From contig JAIBAY010000012.1 of the NCBI GenBank assembly GCA_019694975.1, positions 1 to 64,000 of the forward strand: DNA of 64,000 bases. Reading direction: 5' to 3'. The notes under the pieces were generated by a model, which made no database searches, had not been told where the DNA came from, and saw only the letters and a list, made by a program, of their open reading frames with translations. Positions 2,298 through 57,730 of this stretch are shown piece after piece (positions within the stretch are counted from its first letter, which is position 1; each line of letters begins with the position of its first letter). The stretch comes from Chitinophagales bacterium (lineage in GTDB: Bacteria; Bacteroidota; Bacteroidia; Chitinophagales; UBA10324). The position numbers and the translations under genes are program-made.

Positions 2298-2362
2298 CCA
2301 TTGGTAGGGATTTTTAATCAAAGGTGTTCGAAACCCTTTGATTACAAATCCGGACTAACGAG
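2298..2362. repeat. Dispersed repeat, hairpin-only copy (copy A)
   Basis: The left terminal repeat of the ~270-bp family (TTGGTAGGGATTTTTAATC, then GGTGTTCGAAACC) is followed directly by the right terminal repeat (TTGATTACAAATC, then CGGACTAACGAGG). The whole internal region is missing. The result is a ~30-bp-arm hairpin, as expected from internal deletion of a full copy. Confidence 0.75.
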
Positions 2363-2410
2363 GAAAGACCGGTTTACCCGCTCGTGCTGCAAAAAAAAAA
2401 TTGTTCTTGG

Positions 2411-3631
2411 CTAATGAACCAGAATCTTATCAGTACCAGTTTGTTCTCTGGTAATAAGGTTTACCAGGTAAAGTCCCGGAGATAGTGATTCCAAATCCAA
2501 ATCAATTTTCCCGGCAGTGCTAAAATCCTGAGAAAAAACCTGCTTCCCTAAAGAAGAGAAGATTTGAACGCTAACAGGTCCTGGATTTTTGGATTCGATG
2601 CTCAGTATCTCTGAAACCGGGTTAGGATACATTTTGAAATTCAGAACCGGTTCCTGCTTTATTCCGGTAGTTAAATAGGTACTTTTTGCGAAAATGGAAT
2701 TGTCACAAACAATTTCAGAAACAAGATCGGGGACGAAACCAGCTACATACGTATTGCTATAAGTATTGAAAGCAATCATTCTAAGCATATTGCCGGTGTT
2801 CATTGCAACCAGCAAAAAGGTCCCTGTATTTTGGTCAAAAGAAGATGAACCACCCACGTAATAAGGAAAACCGATCAGCTCTCCGCGGTTAATAATATCT
2901 CCGGTTGTTTTATCTATCTCGACAATATTCCTTCCTGTGAAATTAAACAGGGAGTCATACGTATCACTCAGGGCATAAATGATTTCATTGACATTATCAA
3001 AATGAACGCTTGTAATATTGTTGTAAGGCGCTGTTGAATTCAGAATTGTTTTCGTGAATGAAAACAGGCTATCTCGCACAGGTACTGCATATAAACACAA
3101 AGCAGGATCATTGGTAAAACCCACATAATAAAGAATGCCGTTATTTGAATCAAAACCAATGGCATCGCTGACAATACCATTCGCACCCGGTTCATAGATA
3201 ATACCGATCAGGCTGTCCTGATTCGCACTGATATTGTATTCATAAATGCTGATATATTCCTCGGTTTCCATTAACAGGTTGTACATTTTTCCGTTGCTCA
3301 TATCGAATTCTGAAACATTGGTATATAAGGACCCACCTGCCAGATTTTCCATACCGGTAACTGAATTATATGAATACAATCCTGAGCTGCCGTCCGCAAT
3401 TCCGGTAATATAATACGTGCTGTTAAGTGCATCAAACGCTGAGGTGGCGAAATAATAGCCATCCAGCATGGTTGGTATCACATTTACGGTTAGCGAATCC
3501 AGCGCCTGCCACTGAATGAGGTTAATGCTGCCGGTACTGGAATTGGTGGAAGCTCCGATAAGATTTATCTGCGCAAAAACTCCGATATGCAGGGTGGTCA
3601 CTAAAATACAGCTCAAAAATGCTTTTTTCAT
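2411..3631 (-). CDS. Secreted T9SS-sorted protein of unknown function
   Basis: This 406-residue protein starts with a clear signal peptide (MKKAFLSCILVTTLHIGVFA, cleaved near Gln21). It ends (about 330-406) in a T9SS type A sorting tail with the MYPNP motif, an SLSPGLYLV segment and a basic end. The protein is therefore expected to cross the outer membrane by type IX secretion. The body is rich in aromatic and Asp/Asn residues, with loosely repeated strands such as YYITGIADGSSGLYSYN and ILYYVGF. This suggests a beta-propeller-like fold, but I cannot name a family. There are no catalytic motifs. It lies alone, with the LytTR/LytS pair upstream on the same strand and a 210-bp gap between. Confidence 0.85.
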   Translation of the reverse strand: MKKAFLSCILVTTLHIGVFAQINLIGASTNSSTGSINLIQWQALDSLTVNVIPTMLDGYYFATSAFDALNSTYYITGIADGSSGLYSYNSVTGMENLAGGSLYTNVSEFDMSNGKMYNLLMETEEYISIYEYNISANQDSLIGIIYEPGANGIVSDAIGFDSNNGILYYVGFTNDPALCLYAVPVRDSLFSFTKTILNSTAPYNNITSVHFDNVNEIIYALSDTYDSLFNFTGRNIVEIDKTTGDIINRGELIGFPYYVGGSSSFDQNTGTFLLVAMNTGNMLRMIAFNTYSNTYVAGFVPDLVSEIVCDNSIFAKSTYLTTGIKQEPVLNFKMYPNPVSEILSIESKNPGPVSVQIFSSLGKQVFSQDFSTAGKIDLDLESLSPGLYLVNLITREQTGTDKILVH

Positions 3632-3843
3632 AAGGATTTGTTCTCTTCATCTAACAAAAAGAAGTTAATAATGTTCAAATTTATTTTCTGTCGCTCAGTC
3701 CCAGGTAGGCGTCTCGCCAATCAGGGAAAAACAGACGAACTCAACGCATATTGAATCCTTCGTTACAAAACCTGCCGCTACTACACTGCTGTGTCTGTTT
3801 ATTATTTTCTTTTCCATAATAGGCAGATGACTGTCAATCATGC

Positions 3844-4560
3844 TCAAAATCCTGTTATCTTCTTAAATGCCGCCGCTTTTCTAATTGAGATTCCGATATT
3901 AACTCCATTTTTTAGTATGGCTTTGAGTCCTCGTTTATCCGAGGTTTTTATATTTGATACGAGATGGAGATTGATAATCTGGCGGCGGTTGACACGAAAA
4001 AAATCAGCAGATGGTAACTGCTCCATTATTTGTTTAAGCGAGCGATGCATCAAACAGGAACGATGGTCAAAATAGAATTTAGAATAGTTTCCCAGTGATT
4101 CGATCAGGTAGATATCTATCAGCTTAATAAAATAACAGTATTGGCCATCCTTTAAAAAAATCTGTTTATTCATACCAGTATCCGATTTGTTGTCAGTCTC
4201 CAGATCTTTTCTCACTTTTTCAATGGTCTTTGACAACCGTTCGGGCTTGACTGGTTTCATTATATAGTCCAGCGCGTTTTTTTCAAATGCCTTAACAGCA
4301 AATTTGTCGTAGGCAGTAATAAAAACCACTCTTGGTACTGTTTTTAGTTCATCGAGTAATTCAAACCCGTTTCTCCCTGGCATGTTCACATCAAGAAAAA
4401 GAAGCTGGGGTTGATAGAACTGGATTTTCTCCAGCGCATCCGTAACGTTTTTAGCCTCACCAAGAATTTCTATTTCCGGATAGGAAGACAATAAATACCG
4501 CAGCTCCTTTCTTGCCAGCGGTTCATCATCAATAATCAGTGTCCTGATCGGACTATTCAT
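3844..4560 (-). CDS. LytTR-family response regulator
   Basis: This 238-residue regulator has a receiver domain (1-120) with acidic Asp11/Asp12, phosphoacceptor Asp57 in LFLDVNMPG, and the lysine of the YIMKP motif. A LytTR DNA-binding domain follows (about 135-238), with the family phrase ADFFRVNRRQIINL. The start codon overlaps the stop of the upstream kinase by four bases, so the two are translationally coupled. The target genes cannot be read from the sequence. The T9SS gene immediately downstream or the divergent deiminase gene are candidates by position only. Confidence 0.95.
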   Translation of the reverse strand: MNSPIRTLIIDDEPLARKELRYLLSSYPEIEILGEAKNVTDALEKIQFYQPQLLFLDVNMPGRNGFELLDELKTVPRVVFITAYDKFAVKAFEKNALDYIMKPVKPERLSKTIEKVRKDLETDNKSDTGMNKQIFLKDGQYCYFIKLIDIYLIESLGNYSKFYFDHRSCLMHRSLKQIMEQLPSADFFRVNRRQIINLHLVSNIKTSDKRGLKAILKNGVNIGISIRKAAAFKKITGF

Positions 4561-5663: not shown

Positions 5664-5790
5664 TCACAACAAGGTTCCCGGGTTCATATCATTAAATACA
5701 AATACGCTCATCCTCAAAAATAAACGCTCATGTAATTTTCCTGATTTCCGCGATTTCATTTCTTAATATTTGCATCAAACAAATGAAATC

Positions 5791-7743: not shown

Positions 7744-7759
7744 TTCATAAGAACAATGT

Positions 7760-7798: not shown

Positions 7799-8663
7799 CA
7801 TTGATTTGATGTCAGTCAAGATGTTCAATCCTAAGTGTTCGAATCCTTTAGAGTTATTAAACAGGTATTTATCTTAGCCAGGATCACAACCACATAGGAT
7901 GGCAACTTGTTTCATTATTTCTTCATCGGGTTCAAGTTCAGAGCAAAACCTGGCTTTATTAAAACTGGAGATGTTATTGAGTTTTCTTTAGGTATTTTTT
8001 AATTGATGGCCTGTTCCGTTGATCTGGATTTGTAATCACAAGTGTTCGAAATATCATCAAAGGCTTATCCGGTATACATTACAGCTGCTTTAAGGAAGCG
8101 TTTTCACCCATTTAAATATTCCTTTGGCATTGTGAATGTGATTTCTATCAGTGAGAAACATACATGAGGATTTTTCGGAACAAGTTCAGACTCGATTCTT
8201 AGACATTAAAAATGCTTTGGAACTGAAGCCAGTAAAGAGTTTCAAAGGTTTCGAACACTTGTTATTACAAATCCGCACTAACGGAGAAAACCCTCCCATT
8301 GGAATTCTGCAAAACGTCAGGCTTTGTAATAACGCCGCTCTCAAAACAATTTCATAAAACAGATCATGAGATATTGAGTGTGGGCGCATTAGACGCCATT
8401 TACCGGCGCTGGTTTTTTATGCAGTCACTTCATTTGAAAAACCTGAATCATCAACTTATCCTATTATTACAACGTGGCAAACGCTTTTCGCGTTTACCTC
8501 GTCGCTAAAAAGAAATCCATTGCCTGTCAGATGAAGGAGTAGCGATTATCTATGAAATTCCCTAATGAACCAAATGAGCCAAGTCCCTTTAATATCCTTC
8601 CTCTCATTTCGCTCTGCGAAAGATCGTGATGATTGTACATGAACATTTGGCTGTTTAAGCAGT
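7799..8663. other. Gene-free stretch around repeat copy B
   Basis: Apart from the full repeat copy at 8016-8284, this holds a degenerate inner-repeat fragment near 7833-7855 (AAGTGTTCGAATCCTTTA). About 380 bases at 8285-8663 show no credible gene; the short open frames there are chance. Confidence 0.5.
8016..8284 (+). repeat. Dispersed ~270-bp inverted-repeat element, copy B (subtype 2)
   Basis: The left end CGTTGATCTGGATTTGTA and inner box AGTGTTCGAAA face the right end GGTTTCGAACACTTG, then ATTACAAATC, then CGCACTAACGG. The interior is nearly the same as copy F (40023-40292), including GCATTGTGAATGTGATT and the ATTTTTCGGAACAAGTTCAG segment. It carries no open frame that could be a transposase. 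Confidence 0.85.
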
Positions 8664-9407: not shown

Positions 9408-9438
9408 TATTAATTGATTAAGATTATGAAAGGAATAT

Positions 9439-12240: not shown

Positions 12241-12258
12241 TATTCATTAAGTGATATG

Positions 12259-25694: not shown

Positions 25695-27767
25695 ATGAAA
25701 ATATTCCAAACTACCCTGATGCTCTTTACCTGTTTCATGACCGTAAATGCACAACAACCAACCATTCATTGGCAAAAATGTTATGGAGGTTCCTCTACCG
25801 ATAAGCCGGGTTATGCTCAAAACATGGTGGTGAATGCTGATGGCTCCTACACTGTTGCGGGTTATTCTAACTCGACAAATGGATTAGTTACAGGAAATCA
25901 TGGCGTATATGATTATTGGATAACAAAGTTCGACAATGCAGGAACACTCTTGTGGCAGAAATCATTAGGTGGCACTGGTACGGAAAAAGGGTATTCATTA
26001 ATTCCTTCCAATGGAAGTGGATACCTGGTAGCTGGTGAAGCTTCTTCAAACAATAGTGGCAATGTAGGCGCAAATCACGGAGGGTCTGATTTCTGGCTGA
26101 CGCAACTTGATAGTAACGGATTATTGGAATGGCAGAAATGCTATGGTGGCAACGGAAGTGATGTTGCTTATTCCGTTCGTCAAACCATTGATGGCGGCTA
26201 TGTTGCTGTGGGCACCACATTTTCAAATAATAACGGCGATGTTGGCAGTACGCATGGCAGTTATGATATATGGGTAATAAAAACGGATGCGTCCGGCATC
26301 TTGCTTTGGCAATCATGTTTGGGTGGTTCATCTTATGACATTGCATATGATGTGCTCCCTACAAATGATCACGGGCTGCTGGTTGCAGGATATACTTCAT
26401 CCACGAATGGTGATGTTACGCTCAATCATGGCGGAGAAGATTGCTGGGTGGTGAAACTAGATAGTCTTGGCAATAAAATATGGCAGAAAACCTTTGGTGG
26501 AAACGATGACGAACGAATCTCATCTATACAACCAACCATGGATGGCAATTATATTTTTGCGGCTCAAACTGCTTCAAATAACAATGGCGATGTGGGTGCT
26601 AACCATGGTGATTACGATTTCTGGCTGGTGAAAATTGACGGATCAGGAAATATATTATGGGAAAATTGTTTTGGAGGCTCTTTGGCGGAAAGAGCTTCAT
26701 CCGTAATTGAATGCAGCGACGGAGGTTTTCTGCTTTCCGGCACTACCGATTCAAATAATAATGGCGATGTTTCTGCTTCGAATGGCGAAACAGACTATTG
26801 GATTGTGAAAAGCGATCCATTGGGAACGCTGCAATGGCAAAGATGCCTTGGAGGCAGTTTTGATGATTATGGAATTCAGGCTTTGCCTATATCAGACGGT
26901 GGCTATATTGTCAGTGGCAATACGCAATCTCAGAATACTGGTGATGTGGGGGTTGGTTATGGCGGCTATGATTTTTGGCTGGTACAACTGAATCCTGCCT
27001 GTACGCTGCCATCAATCAGCATCAGTGCCGGCGGAACAACCAGTCTTTGCAGCGGAGAAAAAGTGAAATTGACTGCTTCCACCCAAGTTAGCTATCAATG
27101 GCAGAAGAATGGGATAAACATAGCCGGTGCTACAAAAAAGAGTTATACGGCAAAGGATCCCGGCACTTATTTTTGTACTACGAACAATGAATGTGGTACA
27201 GCAACCTCCAATGGCATTTCTGTTACCGTGAATAATTTACCTTTAGCAAAAATTACTCCCGGCGGTATCAAAAACATTTGTGCCAATCAACTTCCCTATA
27301 CATTGTCTGCCAGTTCTTCAACTTCACAAACTTATCAATGGTTATTGAATGACAACTCGATCAGCGGAGCAACCGGCCTTACCTATGCTGCTCCTGCTGC
27401 AGGTTCATACAAAGTCGTCGTAACAAACACCATGACCGGATGCAGCAAGACATCAAAAGCAACAGTAATAAATGTAACGTGCAGGCAAACCGACATAGCA
27501 GCAGCAGAAGCTGCTATCTATCCAAACCCGAATTCTGGTTCCTTCATATATATGATTCATACAGCAGAAGATCTGACAATGAGCATTACAATAGCCAATT
27601 CAATTGGTAAAGTAGTGTATCATTCCTCGGTAGATTTGGTTGCCGGCACTAATGAAATTCCAATAAGTATTGAAAATGCAACAGACGGAATCTACTTTGT
27701 AACCCTTGACGGAAGGAAAGACATTCCTCAGGTGTTCAAGTTAATTGTTACAGACGCGGATAAATAG
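25695..27767 (+). CDS. Secreted seven-repeat propeller protein with Ig-like domains, T9SS cargo
   Basis: This 690-residue protein has a signal peptide (to about residue 19). Seven tandem repeats of ~57 residues (about 22-435) follow the pattern WQKxxGG...DGGYxxAG...NNGDVG...YDFWLVKxDxxGxLL, which fits a seven-bladed beta-propeller. Two Ig-like domains (about 440-515 and 520-600) contain ASTQVSYQWQKNGINIAGA and TYQWLLNDNSISGATG, each with conserved Trp and Cys. A T9SS tail with IYPNP ends the protein. No catalytic residues are evident; an adhesin or cell-surface binding role is an inference. It opens the plus-strand series of secreted proteins. Confidence 0.88.
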   Translation: MKIFQTTLMLFTCFMTVNAQQPTIHWQKCYGGSSTDKPGYAQNMVVNADGSYTVAGYSNSTNGLVTGNHGVYDYWITKFDNAGTLLWQKSLGGTGTEKGYSLIPSNGSGYLVAGEASSNNSGNVGANHGGSDFWLTQLDSNGLLEWQKCYGGNGSDVAYSVRQTIDGGYVAVGTTFSNNNGDVGSTHGSYDIWVIKTDASGILLWQSCLGGSSYDIAYDVLPTNDHGLLVAGYTSSTNGDVTLNHGGEDCWVVKLDSLGNKIWQKTFGGNDDERISSIQPTMDGNYIFAAQTASNNNGDVGANHGDYDFWLVKIDGSGNILWENCFGGSLAERASSVIECSDGGFLLSGTTDSNNNGDVSASNGETDYWIVKSDPLGTLQWQRCLGGSFDDYGIQALPISDGGYIVSGNTQSQNTGDVGVGYGGYDFWLVQLNPACTLPSISISAGGTTSLCSGEKVKLTASTQVSYQWQKNGINIAGATKKSYTAKDPGTYFCTTNNECGTATSNGISVTVNNLPLAKITPGGIKNICANQLPYTLSASSSTSQTYQWLLNDNSISGATGLTYAAPAAGSYKVVVTNTMTGCSKTSKATVINVTCRQTDIAAAEAAIYPNPNSGSFIYMIHTAEDLTMSITIANSIGKVVYHSSVDLVAGTNEIPISIENATDGIYFVTLDGRKDIPQVFKLIVTDADK

Positions 27768-28032: not shown

Positions 28033-28395
28033 CTACTCCTGCAGAAACCCCATACGCTCCCACTCAGCTTTGTTCACCGCAATAATCGCATCTGTCGTAT
28101 CTCCGGATTTATTGGTATTGAGTGCGGATGGGACACGAGTCCACAGCAGCTTGTTTGGATTCTGCGCGTAAATATTTGTTTCAATCATGCAGGTTTTGTC
28201 TTCGGGGTAGTAGTCCGCTGAAAATACCGGTAACCACACGACCCGGCATAACCTGTTCCTTCCACATAGCTGACTCATGTCCGCGTTATTCAGGCGCTTA
28301 AGCACGATACCTTCAAAGCCATCCCTTTCAAGCTTTGCGCGACCTTCCGATCGTTGGTATCGGATGGCAACAGGTAACTGTAAACCTGTACACGT
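28033..28395 (-). pseudogene. Remnant of a small periplasmic lipoprotein (DUF4136-like), truncated and frameshifted
   Basis: On the minus strand the frame LERDGFEGIVLKRLNN ... IETNIYAQNPNKLLWTRV ... ERMGFLQE resembles the end of small Bacteroidota lipoproteins. These carry a GYDGVVLxRL segment, an ETNVY...KLIWSG segment and a KMQKEGF end. Further upstream (about 28330-28395) the matching sequence (YLLPSDTNDRKVAQ) is in another frame, so at least one frameshift is present. The N-terminus with signal peptide is missing: the frame runs into the terminal repeat remnant at ~28396-28425. The family assignment is tentative. Confidence 0.5.
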
Positions 28396-28425
28396 TAGTC
28401 AGGTTAACAATTCCGGACTAACGGG
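28396..28425 (+). repeat. Right-end remnant of the dispersed repeat (copy C)
   Basis: ACAATTCCGGACTAACGGG matches the right end of copy E exactly, preceded by a partial inverted sequence (ACGTTAGTCAGG). The internal part is gone. It marks the left boundary of a ~500-bp duplication. Confidence 0.7.
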
Positions 28426-28910
28426 CGATGAAATACCAAACGGTTATTTGCCTGGCTTCAGAATTATTGGAGAAGCATCACCAGACATCACTACTATTTT
28501 GAAGATTTCAAGGGCTTTGCTCAACTAGTTTGCATCATGGTGCTTGTCAAAACAATTTTGAGATTGCTTCTTGTTGATTTATCCTTGTCAGTGATTCCAT
28601 AAATGCGGAATCCATTCAGGGTTCTTCTTAAGCGGAATGAGTGATGAAGTCATCCGATGACTTCCAAGCAGTTTTTCTTTTTTGCGGGTTTGTATCAGGT
28701 CATATGATTACTGCTGCTCCAATCCGCTCCATTGGTGTACTCCGGACAAGCGCAAATCCGAAATCCGCAATTCCCTGCCCTTAAACCTGACTAAAATCAT
28801 TTCCACTCCTGCCTGAGATCATTGAATTTCTGTATTTGAATTTGCAAACTTTGATCATTCATTTAATCAAAATATATGCATATGAAAACAATCAGATTAT
28901 TACTCGCGAT
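28407..28910 (+). repeat. Upstream-region duplication, copy 1
   Basis: About 500 bases, from the repeat right end through the intergenic region into the first codons of the kelch gene, match 32989-33493 almost base for base. Examples are ATCATTTCCACTCCTGCC and the shared [10 protein letters not shown] start codons. Single-base differences are rare, so the duplication is recent or homogenised. Confidence 0.9.
28426..28528 (+). pseudogene. C-terminal gene fragment (~33 residues) after the repeat end
   Basis: The frame DEIPNGYLPGFRIIGEASPD, then ITTILKISRALLN, ends in a stop and begins at the terminal repeat. An almost identical copy follows copy E at 33008-33108. It looks like the tail of a real protein cut by the repeat, but I cannot name the family, and a chance frame is possible. 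Confidence 0.35.
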
Positions 28911-31683
28911 TTTATTTGCTGCCGGCTTAACCAGTAGCCGGGCACAGGATACATGGACACAAAAAGCTGATTTTGGAGGAACAGCAAGATATGGAGCGGT
29001 AGGATTCTCGATTGGGAACAAAGGCTATATAGGCACTGGTGGACAGGAGCAAAACCCAACTTCATATAATATTGATTTTTGGGAGTATGATGCGGCATCA
29101 GATGTATGGACTCAAAAAGCGGATTTTGGTGGTGAATCCAGATTATCTGCTGTAGGTTTCAGCATCGGCACCAAAGGATACTTGGGAACAGGATATAAAT
29201 ATGATGGAGCATACAACTATTACAAAGATTTCTGGGAATATGATCCTTTGAACAATGCATGGACCAAGAAAGCTGATTTTGGAGGTGTTGCAAGGAGAAA
29301 TGCCGTTGGATTCTCCATTGGCAACAAAGGATACATCGGCACCGGCGGCGCTTATCCATATTATTACACCGATTTCTGGGAATATGATCCCTATATTGAT
29401 ACCTGGATACAGAAAGCGGATTTTGGTGGAGCTGCACGTGGATGGGCTGTTGGTTTCAGCATTGCCAATAAAGGGTACATTGGAACAGGAAGGAACTTGT
29501 ATTCGGGTTCTATTATGATTGATTTATGGGAATATGACACTGAAACTGATAACTGGCTACAACGTGCTGACTATCCAGGGTATGCATTTCTATATTATGG
29601 AGCAAGTGGTTTTTCCATCGGTAACAAGGGGTATTTGGCAGCAGGTTATTCAAGTACACATAAAGATTTTTGGGAATATGATCCTATAAGCAATACCTGG
29701 ACCAAGAAAGCTGATTTTGGAGGATCGGGCGTAGATGGGGCTGCTGCATTTGCTATTGGTGGAAAAGGTTACGTAGGAACAGGGGTGACAGTTCTACCAG
29801 GATCCAATACTTACTATAATTATCTTTGGGAATATTCTCCAGCCATATGCACCGGATTGACTATGTATTTAGATGTCGATAGTGATGGTTATGGTCATAT
29901 TGAAAACAGCTATTTTTCGGCGGATTGTATTGTCCCCAATGGATTTGTTTATGACAGCACCGATTGTAATGATATGAATGCAACGATTAATCCTGGTGCC
30001 TTAGAAATCTTGAATGGCATTGATGACAACTGCAATGGAATTATTGATGAACCGCAAGATGCATGGACGCAAAAAGCAGACGTAGGAGCAATTAAAAGAA
30101 TATTCGCGGTAGGATTCTCCATTGGTAATAAGGGATATATTGGCACCGGATTTGATGGCACTATTTACAAAAAGGACTTCTGGGAATATGACCCTGTAAC
30201 TGATGTGTGGACACAGAAAGCCGACGTTTTAAAAGGTAGTGTATATGATGCAACTGGCTTTTCAATTGGAAGCAAAGGGTATGTTGGTGTTGGGGCTGTC
30301 GGTAGTGCCTTACGGAAAGATTTCTTGGAATATGATCCGGTTACTAATGTATGGACAAAGAAATCCAATTTTGGAGGTGCAGCAAGGAGTAAAGCGGTTG
30401 GATTCTCCATTGGTAATAAGGGATATATTGGCACCGGATGGGATGGCACTTCTTACAAAAAGGACTTCTGGGAATATGATCAAGTTAACGATACATGGTC
30501 AAAGATAGCAGATTTCGAAGGTGAGGAAAGGCAAGATGCGACAAGCTTTGTGATTGCAAATAAAGCTTATGTTGGAACTGGCAGTTCGTCCGTCGATTAC
30601 ATGAATGATTTCTGGGTATATTACCCTGATACGGATAAGTGGGTACAGATAGCAAACTATGCAGGTGGAATGGTAAGCAATGCAAGTAGTTTTTCAATTG
30701 GAACTAAAGGGTATGTGGGACTTGGGTACGACGGTGTTAGTTCATCAGAAAATTTCTGGGAATATGATCCAGTAACTAATATTTGGACTAAGAAAGCTGA
30801 TTTTGGAGGCGGCACAAGGAATAGCGCTGTTGCATTTTCCATTGACGAAAGAGGCTATGTCGGAACCGGCTGGAACAATGCAGGTAGGAAGAATGATTTC
30901 TGGGAATATTTGCCGGCAGGCTTGTGTACCGGATTAACTGTATATTCAGATGCCGATAGCGATAATTATGGCGATGCTGCCAACAGTTTTTTCGCAGCGG
31001 ATTGCATTCTTCCAAACGGGTATGTTGGCAACAGTACCGATTGCGATGATGCGAATGCAGCAATATATCCTGGTGCCCTTGAAATATTCAATGGCGTCGA
31101 TGACGACTGCAATGGAATTGTTGATGATATCGTATGCAATCCTCCAACAGGACTGCTAACTGAAAACATTACTTCAACTTCTGTTAAATTCAAGTGGAAT
31201 TATTCAGCAACCTCTTACAAACTGCGTTACAAAGTTGCTACCACCGGCACCTGGACATTGCTTGGGCCTACAGGACAAACAAAAACCGTGGATGGTCTAT
31301 TGGCCAATACAAAATATGTATGGCAGGTAAAGAGTGTTTGCAATGTTGATCCGAAGATTACGTCCGAATGGTCGGCAAAGCAATTCTTCACCACTGCCCA
31401 GCTGAAAATAAGTAACGACAAGTCAACTTCCTTAAACCTGTATCCTAATCCTACTTGTGAAAACTTCACTCTGAATCTCCAATTTCATTCCGCCCTCAAT
31501 CAATCAGTATCCATCCAATTGCTGAATGTCCTTGGCCAAATTATTTACTCATCTCAGGAATTCGTGAATGGTGAGTTAACCAAAGTAGTCACGATGCCGT
31601 CTTCAGCAACATCAGGATGGTACATTGTGAGAGTGGTGATGAGTGATCAGGTGATGGAGAAGAAGTTACTGTATCAGAAATAA
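28876..31683 (+). CDS. Secreted double kelch-propeller protein with two MopE metal-binding modules, T9SS cargo
   Basis: This 935-residue protein (a second ATG at 28882 is equally possible) has a signal peptide ending TSSRAQ. Six kelch-type blades (~25-324) follow the pattern WTQKADFGG...[15 protein letters not shown]...DFWEYDP. A MopE-type metal-binding module follows (~325-394: DVDSDGYG, Cys, [18 protein letters not shown]). Six more blades (~395-680) and a second MopE module (~683-752) come next, then a fibronectin III domain (~755-841) and a T9SS tail with LYPNP. The acidic DxDxDG and CND motifs suggest calcium or copper binding (family knowledge: MopE). It is one of three adjacent paralogues. 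A terminator follows. Confidence 0.92.
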
Positions 31684-32270: not shown

Positions 32271-32540
32271 CGTTGGCGCGGATTTGTAATCACTTCTGTT
32301 CGAAACATGCTCAAAAGCTTGCTGGGCATACGTTACAGGCAATCTGCTTTAGAGATTTTTATACTGAAAATGCAATGGGTTACAATTGGCACCATGCTTT
32401 TCCTGAGGGGAGAATAGTTCATGACTATTTGAGATAGGATTTTATGTTCACTTTTCCCAATAGAAATATGAATGAAAGTTACGCCAGTTATGGGTTCTGA
32501 AGGTTTCGAACACCTTTGATTTGTAATCCGTGCCTCTTGA
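32269..32540 (+). repeat. Dispersed ~270-bp inverted-repeat element, copy D (subtype 1)
   Basis: The left end CGTTGGCGCGGATTTGTA and inner TCTGTTCGAAACATG face the right end AGGTTTCGAACACC, then TTTGATTTGTAATCC. The outer right end is diverged (GTGCCTCTTGAG). The interior is nearly identical to copies G, I and J. Confidence 0.85.
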
Positions 32541-32735
32541 GCAAAGGGATTTTCAATCCAGCCAGTATGAGTACGACGTTATATTTTTGTATTGATGGTG
32601 AAGGAAAATGAATTGAAAAGCCAAAAGTTCAATCGGTTAACATTAAATAAAATCCTACCCGCGCTGCAGCATATCCGGACTAACGAGTTAATCGGGAGAT
32701 GAACTTTCTGGTATATTGAGGATTATAATCCTCTT

Positions 32736-33008
32736 CTCAGCAAGTCCGGCTTACAAATCAATGGTGTTCGAAACATAAGTAAACCCATGATGGACAAAGA
32801 TTACAGGCAATTTATTTTGGGGCTTTGCATCATTAAGAATAATGGAGCATCAGTAATAATAGACTTTTGCTAAGGAGAACAAATTCAATGAACTGTTGGA
32901 GATTGATCTTGCTCTCGATTTACCCGGCAAAAATTTTATTGAAAGTCAATCCAGTTAAGGGTTCTGTAGGTTTCGAACACCTGTGATTACAATTCCGGAC
33001 TAACGGGA
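32736..33008 (+). repeat. Dispersed ~270-bp inverted-repeat element, copy E (subtype 3)
   Basis: The left end AAGTCCGGCTTACAAATCA and GGTGTTCGAAACAT face the right end AGGTTTCGAACACC, then TGTGATTACAATTCCGGAC and TAACGGGAG. The interior differs from subtypes 1 and 2 but keeps the position of an AGATTACAGGCAAT block and the GTCAATCCAGTTA segment near the right end. Confidence 0.8.
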
Positions 33009-33493
33009 GATGAAATACCAAACGGTTATTTGCCTGGCTTCAGAATTATTGGAGAAGCATCACCAGACATCACTACCATTTTGAAAATTTCAAGGGCTTT
33101 GCTCAACTAGTTTGTTTCATGGTGCTTGTCAAAACAATTTTGAGATTGCTTCTTGTTGATTTATACTTGTCAGTGATTCCATAAATGCGGAATCCATTCA
33201 GGGTTCTTCTTAAGCGGAATGAGTGATGAAGTCATCCGATGACTTCCAAGCAGTTTTTCTTTTTTGCGGGTTTGTATCAGGTCATATGATGACTGTTGCT
33301 CCAATCCGCTCCATTGGTGTACTTCGGACAAGCGCAAATCCGAAATCCGCAATTCCCTGCCCTTAAACCTGACTAAAATCATTTCCACTCCTGCCTGAGA
33401 TCATTGAATTTCTGTATTTGAATTTGCAAACTTTGATCATTCATTTAATCTAAAATATATGCATATGAAAACAATCAGGTTATTACTCATTCT
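32989..33493 (+). repeat. Upstream-region duplication, copy 2
   Basis: This is the second copy of the ~500-bp block described at 28407-28910. It begins inside the right terminal repeat of copy E and ends within the signal-peptide codons of the second kelch gene. Confidence 0.9.
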
Positions 33494-36071
33494 TTTTCTT
33501 GCAGCCGGCTTAACCAGTAGCCGGGCACAAGATACCTGGACACAAAAAGCAAATTTTGGTGGCACCGCAAGATCTGGAGCAGCAGCCTTTTCCATCGGAG
33601 ATAAAGGCTACTTAGGAACAGGTAGCACACCAACAGTATCCGCCCTGTTTAAGGATTTCTGGGAATATGATCCCGCTGCAGATACCTGGACTCAGAAAGC
33701 GGATTTCGGAGGTGGCGAAAGGGCTGCAGCGGTTGGCCTTTCCATCAATGGGAAAGGATATATCGGGACGGGTTTCAGCGGCAGTTTTTGGGGAACCTAT
33801 TACAATGATTTCTGGGAATATGACCCTGTTACAAATTCATGGACAAAGAAGGCGGATTTTGGAGGTGTACCCAGAAGTGAAGCTGGAGGCTTTACCATCG
33901 GAGGCAAAGGTTACATAGGAACAGGTTATACCTATACCATTGGCGAATATTACAGTGATTTTTGGGAATACGATCCTGCTTCGGATGTATGGACCAAAAA
34001 AGCTGATTTTGGAGGAGGAGATTGGGCTGATCCTACCGCTTTCTCCATTGGCAATAAAGGATATATGGGCACCGGGTGGAAGAATGGATTGAGCGCAAGC
34101 TTCTATGAATATGACCCTGCCACCGATACATGGACAAAAAAAGCAAATTACGGAGGAGGTGCCATACAGTATTCTGTAGGTTTTTCGATCGGAAATAAAG
34201 GATATATCGGAACCGGTGTCGGCAGTGCTGTTTTCTATGAGTATGACCCTGATTTAAACAAGTGGACGAAGAAAGCTGATTATGGAGGTGGAGGCGTTAA
34301 TGTTGCCGCAGGGTTTTCAATTGGAAACAAAGGTTACATTGGAACAGGACAAACAAATATTGCCTTAAAATCTTTTTGGGAATATACCCCGGAAACCTGC
34401 ACTGGTTTGACAGTTTATGCAGATATAGATGGCGATAGCTATGGTGATGCTGCCAATACCTACTTTGCAGCAGACTGCATTGTTCCAAATGGATATGTAT
34501 CGAACAGCACCGATTGCAATGATGGAAGCGCAACCATTCACCCGGGTGCAATTGAAATAATGAATGCAACAGATGATGATTGCAATGGAATTATAGATGA
34601 TATAGCACAAAATATATGGTCGCAAAAAGCGGATTTCGGAGGAACAGCCAGGGAAGGAGCTGTCGGATTTTCCATCGGCGGCAAAGGATATATTGGCACC
34701 GGATATCACAATGGCGCGATTTATAAAGATTTTTGGGAGTATGATGCCGCAACCAATGTATGGACGCAAAAGGCTGATTACTCCGGAAATACAACTTACA
34801 GGGGGATGGCCTTCGCTATTGGAAATAAAGGTTATGTTGGAACCGGGAGCGAAGGAGGAACCGATTTCAGTAAGGATTTCTGGGAATATGATCCTGCATC
34901 CAATACCTGGACACAGAAAGCGGATTTTGCCGGATCAGGAAGGTATGCTGTTGTTAGTTTCTCGATTGGAAACAAAGGATATGCAGGTACAGGATTCAAC
35001 TGGGGAGCTAATGGTAACACCGCGACAAACCTGAAAGATTTTTGGGAATATGACCCAACAACAGATAAATGGACTAAAAGAGCAGATTACACGGGTGGAA
35101 ATTGTGCTTGGGCAAGCGGTTTTAGTATTGGAACTAAGGGGTATATTGGAACCGGTATCACAGGTAACCCGTTCGGAGGAGTTGTTACCAATCAATTTTG
35201 GGAATATGATCCCGCTATTGACACCTGGACACAGAAAACCAATTTCGGAGGAACAGCAAGATCGGCTGCCGCCGGATTTTCAGTTGGGAGTAAAGGATAT
35301 ATTGGTACCGGCAGCGATGGCGGATATAAGAAGGATTTCTGGGAATATGATCCGGTTGCTGACACCTGGACAAAGAAAGCGGATTTCAGCGGGTCAGGCA
35401 GACAGTTCGCAACCGGCATTTCCATCAACGGGAAAGGTTATTTGGGCCTTGGTAATAATGGATCTTCGCTAAAGGATTTCTGGGAATATACTCCTGTCAC
35501 AAATACTGCTTTATGTGAGGTGCCATCAGGTGAAGCAACAATAAATATTACCGGCACTACTGCCGATCTTGTTTGGAATGATGTTACTACAGCTTTGGGT
35601 TACGTGATTAAGTACAATACAGAGGGCGGAACTGGTAAAGCCAAAGTAACCTACTCCAAATCCAACTCAAAACCCATTTCCGGATTAACACCAAGCACTG
35701 CCTATTTCTGGAGGGTGAAAAGTGTTTGTTCAGAAGATCCGAAAGTTGTTGCTGAATGGTCAGAAAAATATTTCTTCACTACTGCCCCATTCAAAATCGG
35801 GGATGACCAATCCAATTCGCTTACTCTATATCCAAACCCTGTTTCGCAACAGTTCACGCTGAATATTGAATCAGGTTCAACCACCAATCAGGCAGCATCC
35901 ATTTATCTGCTGAATGTTCTTGGCCAAACTGTTTATTCCTCTCAGGAATTCGTGAATGGTGAGTTGACCAAAGTAATTACGATGCCGTCTTCAGCAACAT
36001 CAGGATGGTACATTGTGAGAGTGGTGATGAGCGATCAGGTAATAGAACAGAACTTGTTGTATCAAAAATAG
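33459..36071 (+). CDS. Secreted double kelch-propeller protein with one MopE module, T9SS cargo
   Basis: This 870-residue paralogue of the preceding gene starts with the same [10 protein letters not shown] and has a signal peptide ending TSSRAQ. Six kelch-type blades (~25-312), a MopE metal-binding module (~312-382, DIDGDSYG ... STDCND ... DDDCNGIIDD), six more blades (~383-685), a fibronectin III domain (~686-775) and a T9SS tail with LYPNP follow. The second MopE module of the neighbour is absent. The last ~40 codons are nearly identical to those of its neighbours at the DNA level. It is expected on the cell surface; its ligand is unknown. A perfect terminator follows. Confidence 0.92.
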   Translation: MHMKTIRLLLILFLAAGLTSSRAQDTWTQKANFGGTARSGAAAFSIGDKGYLGTGSTPTVSALFKDFWEYDPAADTWTQKADFGGGERAAAVGLSINGKGYIGTGFSGSFWGTYYNDFWEYDPVTNSWTKKADFGGVPRSEAGGFTIGGKGYIGTGYTYTIGEYYSDFWEYDPASDVWTKKADFGGGDWADPTAFSIGNKGYMGTGWKNGLSASFYEYDPATDTWTKKANYGGGAIQYSVGFSIGNKGYIGTGVGSAVFYEYDPDLNKWTKKADYGGGGVNVAAGFSIGNKGYIGTGQTNIALKSFWEYTPETCTGLTVYADIDGDSYGDAANTYFAADCIVPNGYVSNSTDCNDGSATIHPGAIEIMNATDDDCNGIIDDIAQNIWSQKADFGGTAREGAVGFSIGGKGYIGTGYHNGAIYKDFWEYDAATNVWTQKADYSGNTTYRGMAFAIGNKGYVGTGSEGGTDFSKDFWEYDPASNTWTQKADFAGSGRYAVVSFSIGNKGYAGTGFNWGANGNTATNLKDFWEYDPTTDKWTKRADYTGGNCAWASGFSIGTKGYIGTGITGNPFGGVVTNQFWEYDPAIDTWTQKTNFGGTARSAAAGFSVGSKGYIGTGSDGGYKKDFWEYDPVADTWTKKADFSGSGRQFATGISINGKGYLGLGNNGSSLKDFWEYTPVTNTALCEVPSGEATINITGTTADLVWNDVTTALGYVIKYNTEGGTGKAKVTYSKSNSKPISGLTPSTAYFWRVKSVCSEDPKVVAEWSEKYFFTTAPFKIGDDQSNSLTLYPNPVSQQFTLNIESGSTTNQAASIYLLNVLGQTVYSSQEFVNGELTKVITMPSSATSGWYIVRVVMSDQVIEQNLLYQK

Positions 36072-40022: not shown

Positions 40023-40292
40023 CCGTTGGTCTTGATTTGTAATCATAGGTGTTCGAAACATCTTCAAAGGCTTATCCAGTATACATTACAGCTGTTTTAA
40101 TCAAGCGTTTTCACCCATCTAAGCATTCCTTTGGCATCGTGAATGTGATTGCTGTCAGCGAGAAACCTACATGAGGATTTTTCGGAACAAGTTCAGACTC
40201 GATATTTAGACATTAAAAATGCTTTGGAACTGAAGTCAGTAAAGAGTTTCAAAGGTTTCGAACACCTTTGATTACAAATCCGGACTAACGAG
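40023..40292 (+). repeat. Dispersed ~270-bp inverted-repeat element, copy F (subtype 2)
   Basis: The left end CGTTGGTCTTGATTTGTA and GGTGTTCGAAACAT face the right end AGGTTTCGAACACC, then TTTGATTACAAATCCGGAC and TAACGAGAG. The interior matches copy B at most positions. Confidence 0.88.
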
Positions 40293-44674: not shown

Positions 44675-44730
44675 ATTTATCCGGACTTCAGGAGGGTACA
44701 TACCTGATTGTCGCTGACCGGAGCTGTCAT

Positions 44731-44786
44731 GCCGAATTGATTTCGGCATCCCGGCTTAATCGAAAGATCCCGAAACAAGTTCGGGA
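44731..44786. repeat. REP-like palindromes
   Basis: Two small palindromes stand side by side: GCCGAATTGATTTCGGC (44731-44747) and TCCCGAAACAAGTTCGGGA (about 44768-44786). They lie between convergent genes. Such units are common in environmental Bacteroidota genomes (general knowledge). Confidence 0.6.
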
Positions 44787-49037: not shown

Positions 49038-49312
49038 ACTGTTGGTCGGGATTTGTAGTCACTACTGTTCGAAACATGCTTAAAAGCTTGCCGGGCATAC
49101 GTTACAGACAATCTGCTTTAGCGTTTTTCATACTGAAAATGCAATGGGTTACAATTGGCACCATGCTTTTCCTGCGGGGAGAATAGTTTATGACTATTTG
49201 AGATAGAATTTTATGTTCACTTTTCCCGATAGAAATATGAATGAAAGTTAATCCAGTTATAGGCTCTGAAGGTTTCGAAACCTTTGATTACAAATCCGGA
49301 CTAACGAGAGCT
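49038..49312 (+). repeat. Dispersed ~270-bp inverted-repeat element, copy G (subtype 1)
   Basis: The left end TGTTGGTCGGGATTTGTAG and CTGTTCGAAACATG face the right end AAGGTTTCGAAACC, then TTTGATTACAAATCCGGAC and TAACGAGAG. The interior matches copies D, I and J almost completely. Confidence 0.9.
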
Positions 49313-49463: not shown

Positions 49464-49502
49464 GTGAAAATTAGGATGATACTAAAAATTAAACCGTAAT
49501 CT

Positions 49503-51283: not shown

Positions 51284-51510
51284 ACCATCATTATCATCGC
51301 CATATAAAAAATCAATAGTATTCAACTTCAGTCAGGCATGCGGCTGGTGTACGCGTATTTCGTGTGCCCTTGAAAGAATAGTTCTGAAATAAGTCTACAG
51401 TCGCTCTCCACACTGGTGCCCCCGCTGGTGCGCGCGTTTCCCTCCGTTGGTTGGGATTTGTAATTATAAGTGTTCGAAACATTGTGTGACGAGAGTAGTA
51501 AAAAAAATGT

Positions 51511-51609
51511 CATGCTGAGCGGAGTCGAAGCATGGCATTTTTCTGAAGAACTGACCACAAAAGCAATGTCGCACTTCGACTGAGTTTATACTGAGCGTTG
51601 TCGAAGTGC
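51511..51609. repeat. Two REP-like palindromes
   Basis: CATGCTGAGCGGAGTCGAAG followed by CATG (51511-51534) has CATGCT/AGCATG arms. GCACTTCGAC and GTCGAAGTGC (51571-51609) flank TGAGTTTATACTGAGCGTT. Both belong to the GAGCGGAGTCGAAG-type palindromes widespread in Bacteroidota (general knowledge). Confidence 0.65.
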
Positions 51610-51720
51610 TGCTAATGACACATTGTCTTATCAATTGGTTTTTAGCATGTTATAAAAATGCTCAGTTTGAATTTATTTTCCTGTCACTTTTTTTTAGAAA
51701 AAAAGTAACCAAAAAAAGCG

Positions 51721-51750
51721 CGATTGCCAAACGGCTCCGCCCGGCAATCG
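51721..51750. repeat. GC-rich hairpin
   Basis: CGATTGCC pairs with GGCAATCG around a 13-14-base loop. An A-run/T-run hairpin (ACTTTTTTTT/AAAAAAAGT) lies just before it at ~51685-51709. Confidence 0.5.
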
Positions 51751-52011
51751 CTGGCTCGCGCACGGCTTCGATTTGACATCCTGCACGTTTGTAAAGTGTT
51801 TCGACGATTTTCAGTTATTCAATTGAAAAATCTATCAAAGCTTTAATGCTAGGAAAGTGTCATTGCTAAAGAACTCGATTTGCAAAATAGTTTGCGCTCA
51901 GCGTGACATTGCTTTTGTTTCCCTCTAATGGCTGTCTTCTGTGTAAACCTCAAACTTGAATTTCTTTGATTTGTTAAGCAGAGCTGAAAACCAGTAAGGT
52001 TTCGAACACTA

Positions 52012-52275
52012 GTGATTTGTAATCACAGGTGTTCGAAACATGCTCAAAAGCTCGCCGGGCATACGTTACAGACAATCTGCTTTAGAGATTTTTATACTGA
52101 AAATGCAATGGGTTACAATTGGCACCATGCTTTTCCTGAGGGGAGAATAGTTTATGACTACTTGAGATAGAATTTTATGTTCACTTTTCCCGATAGAAAT
52201 ATGAATGAAAGTTAATCCAGTTATAGGCTCTGAAGGTTTCGAAACCTTTGATTACAAATCCGGACTAACGAGAGC
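52012..52275 (+). repeat. Dispersed ~270-bp inverted-repeat element, copy I (subtype 1)
   Basis: The left end GATTTGTAATCACAGGTG with TTCGAAACATG is fused to an older right end, so its outermost bases are missing. The right end reads AAGGTTTCGAAACC, then TTTGATTACAAATCCGGAC and TAACGAGAG. The interior is nearly identical to copies G and J. It forms the left bracket of the glucosylglycerate/antiporter operon. Confidence 0.9.
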
Positions 52276-52349
52276 CATGGCTATGGAAATACAGCAGTGC
52301 CATTGATTACAGCAGAGGTAAAAGACTTTTGGAGATCGATTTCTTTTGA
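52272..52349 (+). pseudogene. C-terminal remnant of a Y1/REP-associated (IS200-like) transposase
   Basis: Directly after the right end of copy I, the frame REPWLWKYSSAIDYSRGKRL then LEIDFF and stop matches the typical C-terminus of IS200-like/REP-associated tyrosine transposases (W/YxYSSAxDYxGxKGLLxIxxx). The HUH catalytic part is missing, so it is dead. Its junction with the repeat may be meaningful or may reflect insertion into an old transposase gene. Confidence 0.5.
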
Positions 52350-52869
52350 AAGAGTTCTTAATGATACGCGTGAAACGCGCGCACCAGCGAGGGGAATCCA
52401 AGCACTTTCTGAAGAAGATATAAGACGGAAGACGGAAGACAAAATCAAAGGTTGACAGTTTACAATCTGCAGTTTATAGTTTGCAAAAAGAGAATACTGA
52501 GATGAAAATTCAGCTTGCGCCCCTCCAATCCGCAATCGTAAATCCGCAATCCGCAATGACGTCTGGTTTTGCCAAGCTTCAAACATCAAACCCAAAATAA
52601 TTCTCGGTCAAAACATCCCCAACCCATTGATTAGCTGCAACTGCAAAGCGACAGTGCTATTATCAAACTTTGGGGCGGACAACAACCGACAATAGAAACT
52701 TCGGCAAAGCCGTTTGGCTATCCTTCGTAAAAGCAAAAGAGAAGCAAAGCCACGCAAAAAGCCAACGCATTTTTGCTTCACATTGGCTTTTGTCCCATGC
52801 ACAAATACCGTTTTTCATAACGGCATGACGGCTCAAAAAGTTAACTTTGACAATAACGAAAAAAGATAA

Positions 52870-54249: not shown

Positions 54250-54252
54250 CGA

Positions 54253-55425: not shown

Positions 55426-55615
55426 GCTATTTACCGGATTTTTTTGAAAGCGAAAAAGCGGGAGGCATTTTGTTGATTGGTTGCACAGCCATTTCACTTT
55501 TACGTGCAAACTTTTATCTCAAGGACAACTACATTCAGTTGTGGGACTTTCAAATTGGCGGACACAGTTCAACATATTGGATAAATGACGGACTAATGAA
55601 GGTTTTCTTTTTACT
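55412..55615 (+). pseudogene. nhaA: nhaA 5' fragment, frameshifted and cut by repeat copy J
   Basis: The ATG at 55412 overlaps the antiporter end and opens MKLTKLFTGFF. A run of seven T's then shifts the frame. In the +1 frame the sequence continues ESEKAGGILLIGCTAISLLR and ends STYWINDGLMKVFFLL. That is unmistakably the N-terminus of the NhaA Na+/H+ antiporter (SExAGGILL and WINDGLMAIFFLLVGLE in the family). At that point repeat copy J begins, and no NhaA sequence resumes after it. About 60 of ~390-440 residues remain, so the gene is dead. Confidence 0.85.
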
Positions 55616-55888
55616 CCGTTGGTCGGGATTTGTAGTCACTACTGTTCGAAACATGCTCAAAAGCTTGCCGGGCATACGTTGCAGACAATCTGCTTAAGAG
55701 ATTTTTATACTGAAAATGCAATGGGTTACAATTGGCACCATGCTTTTTCTGAGGGGATAATAGTTGATGACTATTTGAGATAGAATTTTATGTTCACTTT
55801 TCCCGATAGAAATATGAATGAAAGTTAAGCCAGTTATGGGTTCTGGAGGTTTCGAACACCTGTGATTACCAATCCGGACTAACGGGAG
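55613..55888 (+). repeat. Dispersed ~270-bp inverted-repeat element, copy J (subtype 1)
   Basis: The left end CGTTGGTCGGGATTTGTAG and CTGTTCGAAACATG face the right end AGGTTTCGAACACC, then TGTGATTACCAATCCGGAC and TAACGGGAG. It interrupts nhaA and forms the right bracket of the operon, in the same orientation as copy I. Confidence 0.92.
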
Positions 55889-55973
55889 AAACTGTGGAAG
55901 TATGGAATGAACATTCACTCATTCGCCGCTCTACATGCTTGTCTGCAAACGACCGAGTCCGGAAAGCTAACAA

Positions 55974-56561
55974 TCACTGCAGTTTGGTAATAATCACATC
56001 CTTGAAAGTCCACATACCATCTGAATTGAAATTTGATTCAAGGGTGAGCAGGCTCATGTTCATTCCGTTGGTAATGGGAGGTATATAAAAATCGAGACTC
56101 TGGAAAACAGGTACCATAGCAATAAAGTGTGCCTGGGTGTCGCTGCTGCCTATTCTCCACTGCCCAGATTTACCAGGAGAGAAGCCGACACTCACACGGA
56201 ACTGCACGGTGAAGGAATCCCCGTTTTTTACATTCGTAAGCCATAATTCCATTTTACCGCTGAAACCAGTACCTCCCCAGGGAAAATCAATAACGGGTTC
56301 AGTAGGAAAAAAACTGTTGCAGCCTGCAGCGGTAAGGTATCCTTTGCTGGTATCAATTGTTTTTGCTGCAGACAACGTCAGGTAGGGCTGAACAAACTTA
56401 TACGTTCCTCCTGCCGTGGCAACCAGCTGTTTTAATTGCGCCGATGTATACTTTTCAGGTAAATCAACATCGGTTTGCAGATCGCGTACTACAGGATTAT
56501 TAAGTGAAATAAGCTTCATGGCCTTTACACTTCTCAGATGGGTTGCTGCTGGCTTTTTCAT
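55974..56561 (-). CDS. Conserved-looking protein of unknown function
   Basis: This 195-residue protein has no signal peptide. The N-terminal part (~15-50) has the phrase LISLNNPVVRDLQTDVDLP. The rest is strand-rich, with many Trp/Phe residues (FPWGGTGFSGKMELWLTNV, QFRVSVGFSPGKSGQWRIG), perhaps a jelly-roll or beta-sandwich. No family is recognised and no neighbour suggests a role. The frame is long, balanced and has a good ATG, so it is likely real. Confidence 0.6.
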   Translation of the reverse strand: MKKPAATHLRSVKAMKLISLNNPVVRDLQTDVDLPEKYTSAQLKQLVATAGGTYKFVQPYLTLSAAKTIDTSKGYLTAAGCNSFFPTEPVIDFPWGGTGFSGKMELWLTNVKNGDSFTVQFRVSVGFSPGKSGQWRIGSSDTQAHFIAMVPVFQSLDFYIPPITNGMNMSLLTLESNFNSDGMWTFKDVIITKLQ

Positions 56562-56763
56562 TGCGAAGAATTTTATTAAAGATATTGAATTTTATAATGT
56601 GCGGCTAATTGCAGGCGAGTGGAACAGTGATTGTCATGATAACATCTGAAATAAGCGCCAATGCGGGATGAATCAACCGCTCACCAACCCCATTTTTTTG
56701 TCGATTCTATCTGCAATACCTTAAAAGTAAATGGCGTTTTAGGAAAAAGTATCCTTGCAAAGC

Positions 56764-57384
56764 ATGCGACTCACTTTCACTGTTTTGATCACCCTGTTTT
56801 TTTTATACTGTAATAATGGAGTACCCAAAGAAGCTGCAAGTAAGGGTGAACCGCTGAATATTGAATCAGCGAGAATAAAAGCAAAACAGGCGCTGGATTT
56901 TTGCAATCGCAAAGAATTCAACAATGATTTTTGTATTTTAATTGACATGAGTGTACACTCGGGTCTAAAAAGAATGATGGTATGGGATTTTAAGAAGGAC
57001 ACTGTCTCACTCAGCTTTTTGGTCGCACATGGCTGTTGTGGCAATCCCTGGAGTAATGATTTTTCAAACGACCATCCCGGATTCAGTAATGTGGAGAATA
57101 GTCATTGCTCATCATTGGGTAGATTCAAAATTGGAGAAAGAAGCTATAGTTCCTGGGGTGTTCACGTTAAATATGCGCTCCATGGCCTTGATTCAACTAA
57201 TAGTAATGCTTTTAAACGCTTTGTTGTATTTCATTCATGGGAAGCTGTTCCGGATCAAGAAGTTTATCCAAACGGAACGCCGGAAACGTGGGGTTGTCCC
57301 GCAGTTTCCAATAAGAGTTTCGAGATCATTGATCCGTTATTAAATGCAAGCTTGAAACCAGTGCTTATGTGGATTTATGATTAG
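56764..57384 (+). CDS. L,D-transpeptidase-like (YkuD_2 family) lipoprotein
   Basis: This 206-residue protein starts at the ATG at 56764; a TTG three codons earlier is rejected. It has a lipoprotein-type signal (FFLYC). The catalytic domain shows the YkuD_2 order: IDMSVHSGLKRMMVWDF, LVAHGCCG, FSNVENSHCSSLGRFKIGE, VVFHSW and TWGCPAVSN, with nucleophile Cys178. Family members are murein L,D-transpeptidase-like; the real substrate of the YkuD_2 branch is poorly known. An extra Cys pair in HGCCGN is unusual, since the family normally has HGxGS there. It stands alone, transcribed away from the neighbour at 55974. Confidence 0.85.
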   Translation: MRLTFTVLITLFFLYCNNGVPKEAASKGEPLNIESARIKAKQALDFCNRKEFNNDFCILIDMSVHSGLKRMMVWDFKKDTVSLSFLVAHGCCGNPWSNDFSNDHPGFSNVENSHCSSLGRFKIGERSYSSWGVHVKYALHGLDSTNSNAFKRFVVFHSWEAVPDQEVYPNGTPETWGCPAVSNKSFEIIDPLLNASLKPVLMWIYD

Positions 57385-57730
57385 GCAAATTATCACTTAT
57401 ACTGCGATAGAAATTTTCTTCCGAAATCTGCTCACTCCATTGTAAGCGGGTAAAATATTTTACACCGCCGCCGTGTCGCGCGCATGAGACATGCGGGCAG
57501 TGCAGGTGATTCCTCCTGAATAACAGCATCGCTTTGCTGGTTCCGTTGGTCTTAGCAACGCCAGCGGGAGGCGCAGACCAGCAACTGAAGACGCACTTAA
57601 TCATCAATGTTTGAAATCAAATGCCAATAACCGTGGTCAAAAAAGCTTTGAACACTATTGCATACTAATCCGGACTATTGGGGGAAAATTTTGATCCGGT
57701 GTTTTTCCGCATTAACAGGAGATGATCCAC
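57385..57730. other. Intergenic with degenerate repeat copy K
   Basis: About 345 bases between convergent genes. A degenerate copy lies at ~57541-57685; the left part has an inverted GGTCTTAGCAACGCC-type stretch. No gene is seen. Confidence 0.45.
57541..57685 (+). repeat. Degenerate copy K of the dispersed repeat
   Basis: CCGTTGGTCTTAGC at the left and GCTTTGAACACTATTG, then ACTAATCCGGACTATTGGG, at the right match the family ends with several changes. The interior is shortened to about 100 bases and not similar to the other subtypes. Confidence 0.5.

Follow-up and report, generated by a model that had tools for sequence, protein, structure and literature searches.

Very probable IS4-family miniature elements in palindromic repeats of a Chitinophagales bacterium

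A family of dispersed repeats is found in the window, by which we mean the whole 64,000-nucleotide stretch analysed (positions 1 to 64,000 of contig JAIBAY010000012.1, here C12, of the Chitinophagales bacterium assembly GCA_019694975.1), and on other contigs of the same genome, which has 4.30 Mb in 14 contigs and a tabulated completeness of 100. We hold with strong confidence that these repeats are miniature inverted-repeat transposable elements (MITEs) of the IS4 family inserted in palindromes that resemble repetitive extragenic palindromic (REP) elements. That confidence is for the MITE-in-REP part and does not cover the origin of the copies with inverted flanks, which make up nearly half of the total and mostly lie between outward-facing REP halves. 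In our reading a parent insertion sequence (IS), its ends resembling ATNAGTGTTCGAAAC, and short derivatives bounded in the same manner inserted into the 11-bp centre, GATTNNNAATC, of the palindromes. The insertion duplicated the 11 bp, as is shown by the anatomy of the copies, by relatives that carry a transposase and by one paralogous empty site.

Transposon ends and transposase-bearing relatives

The first-pass annotation of the window gave the copies terminal inverted repeats of about 35 bp. The inverted ends are real, but each is a composite, in which the inner 15-18 bp or so (..TGTTCGAAAC) is the transposon end and the outer part is the 11-bp target duplication, lying within a REP-like palindrome. 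The end pattern GTTTCGAACACYNNTGATTNNNAATC was used to scan contigs of at least 3 kb, with one genome per species, from 84,980 species. It matches 51 stretches, which include several from one species or bin and are not 51 independent events. The titles of all 51 name Bacteroidota groups or genera, the genera being ones that we take to belong to that phylum.

Five end pairs from other Bacteroidota, 1.23-1.28 kb apart, enclose transposase frames, which are of 385-393 residues in loci L078, L081, L096 and L107 and in two pieces in L066. All four intact proteins exceed the cut-off of the NCBIfam IS4 model (138.9-168.1 bits against 115) and that of Pfam DDE_Tnp_1 (PF01609), and in the L078 transposase the spacing Y-2-R-3-E-6-K can be seen by eye in YKQRWDIEVLFKFLK. 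The YREK signature is a mark of IS4-family transposases, and target duplications in this family are about 10-13 bp. Short elements with the same ends are also found elsewhere, of 103-162 bp including the 11-mers (L084, L095 and two in L103; the interior of that in L095 reads N). As the same ends are found on IS with an IS4-family transposase, the host repeats are very probably IS4-family MITEs. A cross-mobilised MITE was one of the two readings offered earlier, and it is supported both by these autonomous elements and by a broken piece of transposase in the window.

Where the two can be aligned the MITE interiors match the IS at the ends, and the remaining matches are weak. There is no intact transposase frame in copies B, D, E, F, G or H, the six-frame translations of which are broken and match seven transposases no better than chance (best E 0.36). 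Of 395 genomes sampled across the phylum 2 match the L107 transposase at E <= 1e-60, and the distribution of the IS is thus patchy. The two further genomes of the genus, which are incomplete, have no match to copy F.

It had been stated that no transposase was in view, and this has to be corrected, as a broken trace with stop codons is present on the minus strand:

7831..7987 (minus): remnant of the parent IS, comprising a decayed transposon end from about 7831 and a stop-broken C-terminal transposase fragment at 7850-7987

The L078 transposase, compared with 60 genomes, has a single match in the host, at C12:7850-7990 on the minus strand (E 2.6e-4; 47 residues at 51% identity, interrupted by two stops), and local tblastn of the remnant gives E 9.6e-8 with the L129 transposase and 1.7e-6 with that of L078. 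The fragment sits inside the decayed transposon end and stops 26 bp short of the REP head of copy B. This broken tail is the only transposase trace found in the host, which suggests that the MITEs there are probably immobile relics.

Copies, target sites and the REP-like palindromes

Alignment of the repeat body finds 15 bodies in the host, on contigs C12, C3, C6 and C1. Eight of them (B, D, E, F, G, H, I and J) are in the window, and A and K are fragments outside the count of 15.

2298..2360 (plus): copy A, hairpin only, a 20-bp fused pair of transposon ends flanked by two REP-like halves
8017..8283 (plus): copy B, type 1, core 8038-8262, inverted 11-mers at 8027-8037 and 8263-8273, REP head on either side
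32271..32560 (plus): copy D, type 2, core 32292-32517, direct 11-mers GATTTGTAATC, REP head at left, tail and second hairpin (32547-32559) at right
32717..33005 (plus): copy E, outlier interior, core 32760-32984, degraded direct 11-mers with two mismatches, second REP hairpin and tail at left, REP head at right
40024..40290 (plus): copy F, type 1, core 40045-40269, perfectly inverted 11-mers, REP head on either side
49040..49306 (plus): copy G, type 2, core 49061-49285, inverted 11-mers with one mismatch, REP head on either side
51445..52024 (plus): copy H, long type, core 51466-52013, direct 11-mers with one mismatch, REP head at left
52014..52270 (plus): copy I, type 2, core 52025-52249, perfectly inverted 11-mers, copy H at left, REP head at right
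55617..55884 (plus): copy J, type 2, core 55638-55863, inverted 11-mers with two mismatches, REP head on either side
57541..57685 (plus): copy K, degenerate remnant with head-like ends
C3: copies C3a at 552412, C3b at 557671, C3c at 562335-562960 and C3d at 564701
C6: copies C6a at 19453 (plus) and C6b at 26018 (minus)
C1: one copy at 523491 (minus)

The nine copies named in the first-pass annotation (A, B, D, E, F, G, I, J and K) are all where it placed them, but one body was overlooked, namely H (51455-52024), the ends of which were probably tallied as solo ends. The right 11-mer of H doubles as the left 11-mer of I. Subtypes of interior with common ends had also been recognised and are confirmed. 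Type 1 (B, F, C3b, C6a and C6b) has mutual identity of 91-96% and type 2 (D, G, I, J, C3a, C3d and the C1 copy) 91-98%, the two types being 53-57% alike, and E is an outlier with 62-64% identity to type 2. To these we add a longer type, H and C3c, with cores of 548 and 581 bp and 90% identity over 530 bp of the query. All copies are intergenic relative to the longer reading frames.

With regard to the target, direct 11-bp duplications flank 8 of the 15 host copies and are perfect in six (D, C1, C3a, C3d, C6a and C6b), with one mismatch in H and two in E. Each of the 30 flanks in the host has at least 7 of the 8 bases that are fixed in GATTNNNAATC. The nine two-ended elements elsewhere (L066, L078, L081, L084, L095, L096, two in L103, and L107) all have direct 11-mers, perfect in eight and with one mismatch in L066; the scan pattern presupposed the core but not the direct orientation. 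Before flanks were counted we set aside two rows that paired neighbouring L103 ends, one row that spanned H and I, and the C1 and C6 rows repeated from the reverse strand.

Four parts can be told apart in the repeat that contains the core: the head is CGTTAGTC, the first hairpin is CGGATT..AATCCG, the tail follows, and the second hairpin is GGATT...AATCC. The palindrome GGATTNNNAATCC has 22 genomic sites against one for a reversed control, some of the sites being second hairpins or coding-looking, and a second REP pattern has 17 against none, with the two-hairpin repeat in only some and others coding-looking. Twelve two-hairpin repeats free of a MITE were read by eye and a thirteenth, on C7, was placed from coordinates. 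No tetranucleotide of the GTAG type was seen by eye at the foot of the hairpin in the 12, and atypical REPs lacking this foot are described for one Bacteroidota subclass of the REP-associated tyrosine transposase (RAYT) (PMC6006769, seen in part, as are the other papers cited by PMC number below). The host has a RAYT gene at C3:551743-552294 (NCBIfam 101.5 bits against a cut-off of 80), and two more Y1 matches are on C4. The repeat flanks the RAYT gene on both sides, at 551658 before it and reversed at 552387 behind it, facing outward as in a REPtron, and the downstream one holds MITE C3a. The target palindromes are a separate repeat family, and because of this position we take them to be probably the REPs of the C3 RAYT, which would act on them.

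Three further comparisons bear on insertion into these repeats. Among 62 ends in other genomes a GCG-type neighbour goes with a purine-first loop in 21 of 22 cases and a GTG-type neighbour with a pyrimidine-first loop in 20 of 20 (the remaining 20 ends have neither neighbour), and this is the pairing predicted for direct-duplication insertion into an asymmetric REP. At C6:19368 there is a paralogous empty site with one GATTTACAATC in place of the two around MITE C6b, and it agrees with the joined C6b flanks over 77 identical bases in a row (3 on the left, the 11-mer and 63 on the right). Lastly, C1 and C3d have about 140 bp of flank in common (94%) and the same REP, but the MITE is turned one way in C1 and the other way in C3d. 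This suggests that copies of a single target were entered twice, or that one inversion occurred.

There are also points that weigh against our interpretation. Seven of the 15 host copies have no direct duplication, and a pattern that presupposes GATTNNNAATC cannot show that the IS group uses it constantly. Among loci found by protein the core is present in L162, and in L161 too, but L161 repeats L081. Other flanks are found in L129, L130, L131 and L138/L143, which are from the host's family or order, and in L129 (genome G049) the 8-bp palindrome GACTAGTC on both sides is equally direct and inverted. The transposase of L130, a closer relative, has no host match at E <= 10. A comparison of 18.8 kb of the window with the same-genus genomes G001 and G002 brought to light no orthologous empty site, its matches (E <= 1e-5) all being inside the interior of copy H.

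The part of copy H at 51646-51777 is a separate dispersed repeat, found 8 times in one of two other genomes of the genus and 10 times in the other. The segment at 32989-33730, on the right of copy E, has a paralogue at 28407-29129 (98% identity over the first 300 bp and 90% over 703 bp). The duplicated segments are upstream of two Kelch-repeat genes with T9SS sorting, and one side of the duplication starts at a REP. The paralogue carries the following:

28393..28423: REP-like palindrome with no MITE and a head at both ends

A stretch of about 60 bp at 44723-44786 has many genomic matches; on C7 (108-119 kb) and at the end of C12 (87.8-89.3 kb) they come at regular intervals.

It had been thought unusual that all copies point the same way. 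This holds for the eight bodies in the window but not genome-wide, as C6 has one copy in each direction, 6.6 kb apart. The probability of one direction for the eight window bodies is 0.008 if they are independent, which they are not because some copies have duplicated flanks in common. Over the whole genome 13 of 15 bodies are on the plus strand, the orientation of the contigs themselves being arbitrary. With regard to replication-strand bias, GC and third-position skews of the stretches examined are weak and inconsistent, and the contigs therefore cannot be oriented relative to replication.

Origin of the copies between outward-facing REP heads

The 11-mers are inverted in seven of the 15 copies, perfectly in F, I and C3b, with one mismatch in B, G and C3c and with two in J. 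A REP tail is kept on one side in 7 of 8 direct copies (the right side of H is taken by I) and in none of the 7 inverted ones (Fisher p = 0.0014, for classes chosen after looking). An outward-facing pair of heads, which is the geometry of a REPIN, is present in six of the seven; in the seventh, I, the left side is occupied by H, which itself has a left head. In most of the seven the two heads are not of the same kind. Two IS from the host's family that were found by protein, L130 (G011) and L131 (G014), also have inverted flanks, which extend their inverted repeats to 35 and 38 bp.

We consider it the likelier course that most inverted copies would have arisen in place after insertion. The MITE would have entered one REP of a head-out pair and slippage between 11-mers would have deleted the inner halves, or homologous recombination would have taken place between MITEs in opposed REPs. 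Deletion within a pair gives head-MITE-head and never tail-MITE-tail, and no tail-MITE-tail copy is present among the 15; random recombination would produce that form as well. Head-out pairs of another REP family, GGTTCGTGTCCCCACGAACC, were seen by eye in a sister genus within the host's family (L163, L167, L179 and L180, in G014, G015 and G012). In L131 the IS is bordered left and right by half of a REP of its own genus, in each case the head half, and bare copies of this REP occur in that genus, some as head-out pairs. The 489 bp to the left of C3b are 95% identical to the left side of the REP upstream of the RAYT gene, with the RAYT and tail missing, and C3b fits a rearranged REPtron. Against an origin in place, neither the sites found by exact pattern nor the parts of the host genome that were read gave a MITE-free head-out pair of the host REP, the RAYT flanks excepted. 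A purely local origin is further opposed by the unlike heads of most inverted copies, and by the right head of C3c, which adjoins a RAYT-like remnant at a point where the C1 paralogue has no REP.

A more doubtful possibility is that the REP-MITE-REP composite is itself a mobile unit, which the RAYT would treat as a REP doublet of unusual size, the MITE being its cargo. The loss of tails in all seven inverted copies is consistent with this, and the head-out layout is that of the REPs around the RAYT gene. The right head is CGTTAGT in 7 of 7 inverted copies. On the left, CGTTGG is found in F, G, J, C3c and the H-I pair (to the left of H), CGTTGA in B and CGTTAG in C3b; relative to the MITE the kinds of head are placed the same way whatever the interior type. 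The RAYT-like remnant at C3:562965 is truncated at C3c, the right head of which abuts it, and G and I are alike for 13 bases from the end of the right 11-mer (CGGACTAACGAGAGC less its last letters) and then diverge. However, the REP may have arrived before the MITE, the gene does not resume in the left flank of C3c, three interior types in the composite need several origins or exchange, and the left flank of C3b fits rearrangement of a REPtron equally well. Were the composite mobile, a DDE-type MITE would ride as cargo between a pair of outward-facing REP ends and could be moved by two unrelated enzymes, into REPs by an IS4 transposase and as a REP doublet by a RAYT, a combination that we think rather unlikely. 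Decayed RAYT-like genes, with runs of MPNHLHF and YIHHNPVKGKW seen by eye, are present at L035 11408-12000 (C1:526407 on) and from C3:562965 on.

Perfecting of the palindrome, in which template switching between the arms would have inverted a direct 11-mer, has in its favour the three perfectly inverted cases (F, I and C3b) and the perfect inverted flanks of L130 and L131. We regard it as improbable and have rejected it, as it does not account for the missing tails, the heads of one copy differ, and the palindrome ends at the REP boundary.

The remaining readings do not involve transposition. The window has a 534-residue tyrosine recombinase gene at 239-1843 (minus), with about 250 residues ahead of the catalytic region; its best NCBIfam matches, XerA-like (217.8 against 220) and integron integrase (211.3 against 265), are below cut-off, and there are three weaker relatives elsewhere in the genome. 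The first-pass annotation had proposed this recombinase as a candidate partner, but no link was found beyond its nearness to fragment A, the surroundings of the other three matches not having been searched. That the repeats are attC-like sites of a cassette array served by it is very improbable: hairpin A is about 450 bp from the gene and the two best models are those just given, but the transposon-type direct duplications in 8 of 15 copies, the paralogous empty site and the IS with the same ends speak against it, and on these grounds the attC reading and the recombination-prone cassette boundary suggested earlier are rejected for the direct class. It is just as hard to credit a conserved regulatory RNA or terminator family, to which the intergenic position among longer frames and the interiors 91-98% alike within types might point, as on the plus strand the folding of the interior of G (z -0.75) and of that of F (z +1.16) is no better than that of shuffled sequences, no Rfam family reaches threshold in the window and unrelated interiors have ends in common; a structured RNA is rejected on the folds and the Rfam result.

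Relation to known systems

Our search of the literature (titles and openings of abstracts, outside subscription literature and ISfinder) found no report of this element, of head-MITE-head composites or of Bacteroidota REPs that hold IS4-type MITEs. What appeared to be a unique 270-bp cassette is now resolved into two nested repeats of known kinds, and a parent IS family, an 11-bp target core and an empty site can be supplied for it. It also gives a caution, that palindromic targets can pass for parts of transposon ends. Movement of a REP-MITE-REP unit by a RAYT would be new, and a genome with REPs, a RAYT and MITEs lodged in REPs is a natural test of whether a RAYT moves REP pairs that hold cargo.

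MITECca01 of Cardinium (PMC9769881) is likewise an IS-derived MITE in the same phylum, but derives from an IS982-family element that has intact copies, is present in 169 genomic copies, and has no REP targeting mentioned in the part of that paper available. The host repeats are close to the IS4-family IS of Flavobacterium, Chitinophagales and other Bacteroidota (L078, L081, L096 and L107), with which they have in common the ends, the 11-bp duplication and the target core, and differ in carrying no transposase frame of the kind found in those IS.

Targeting of REPs by an IS4-family element has a precedent in ISRm22 of Sinorhizobium meliloti, for which the available portions of PMC1525189 place copies in REP elements (nine in the text, 10 of 10 in a table). 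Both are IS4-family elements lodged in REP palindromes, but ISRm22 is an autonomous IS of an alphaproteobacterium, and the host copies are non-autonomous, in Bacteroidota, and partly between two REP heads. In their inverted REP pairs, and in a RAYT gene flanked by its own repeat, the host repeats resemble the REPINs and REPtrons of PMC3116915 and PMC6006769, where Bacteroidota subclasses of RAYT are described. They differ from REPINs, as presented in the parts seen, in having a MITE of about 225 bp and IS4 type in place of the inner REP halves.

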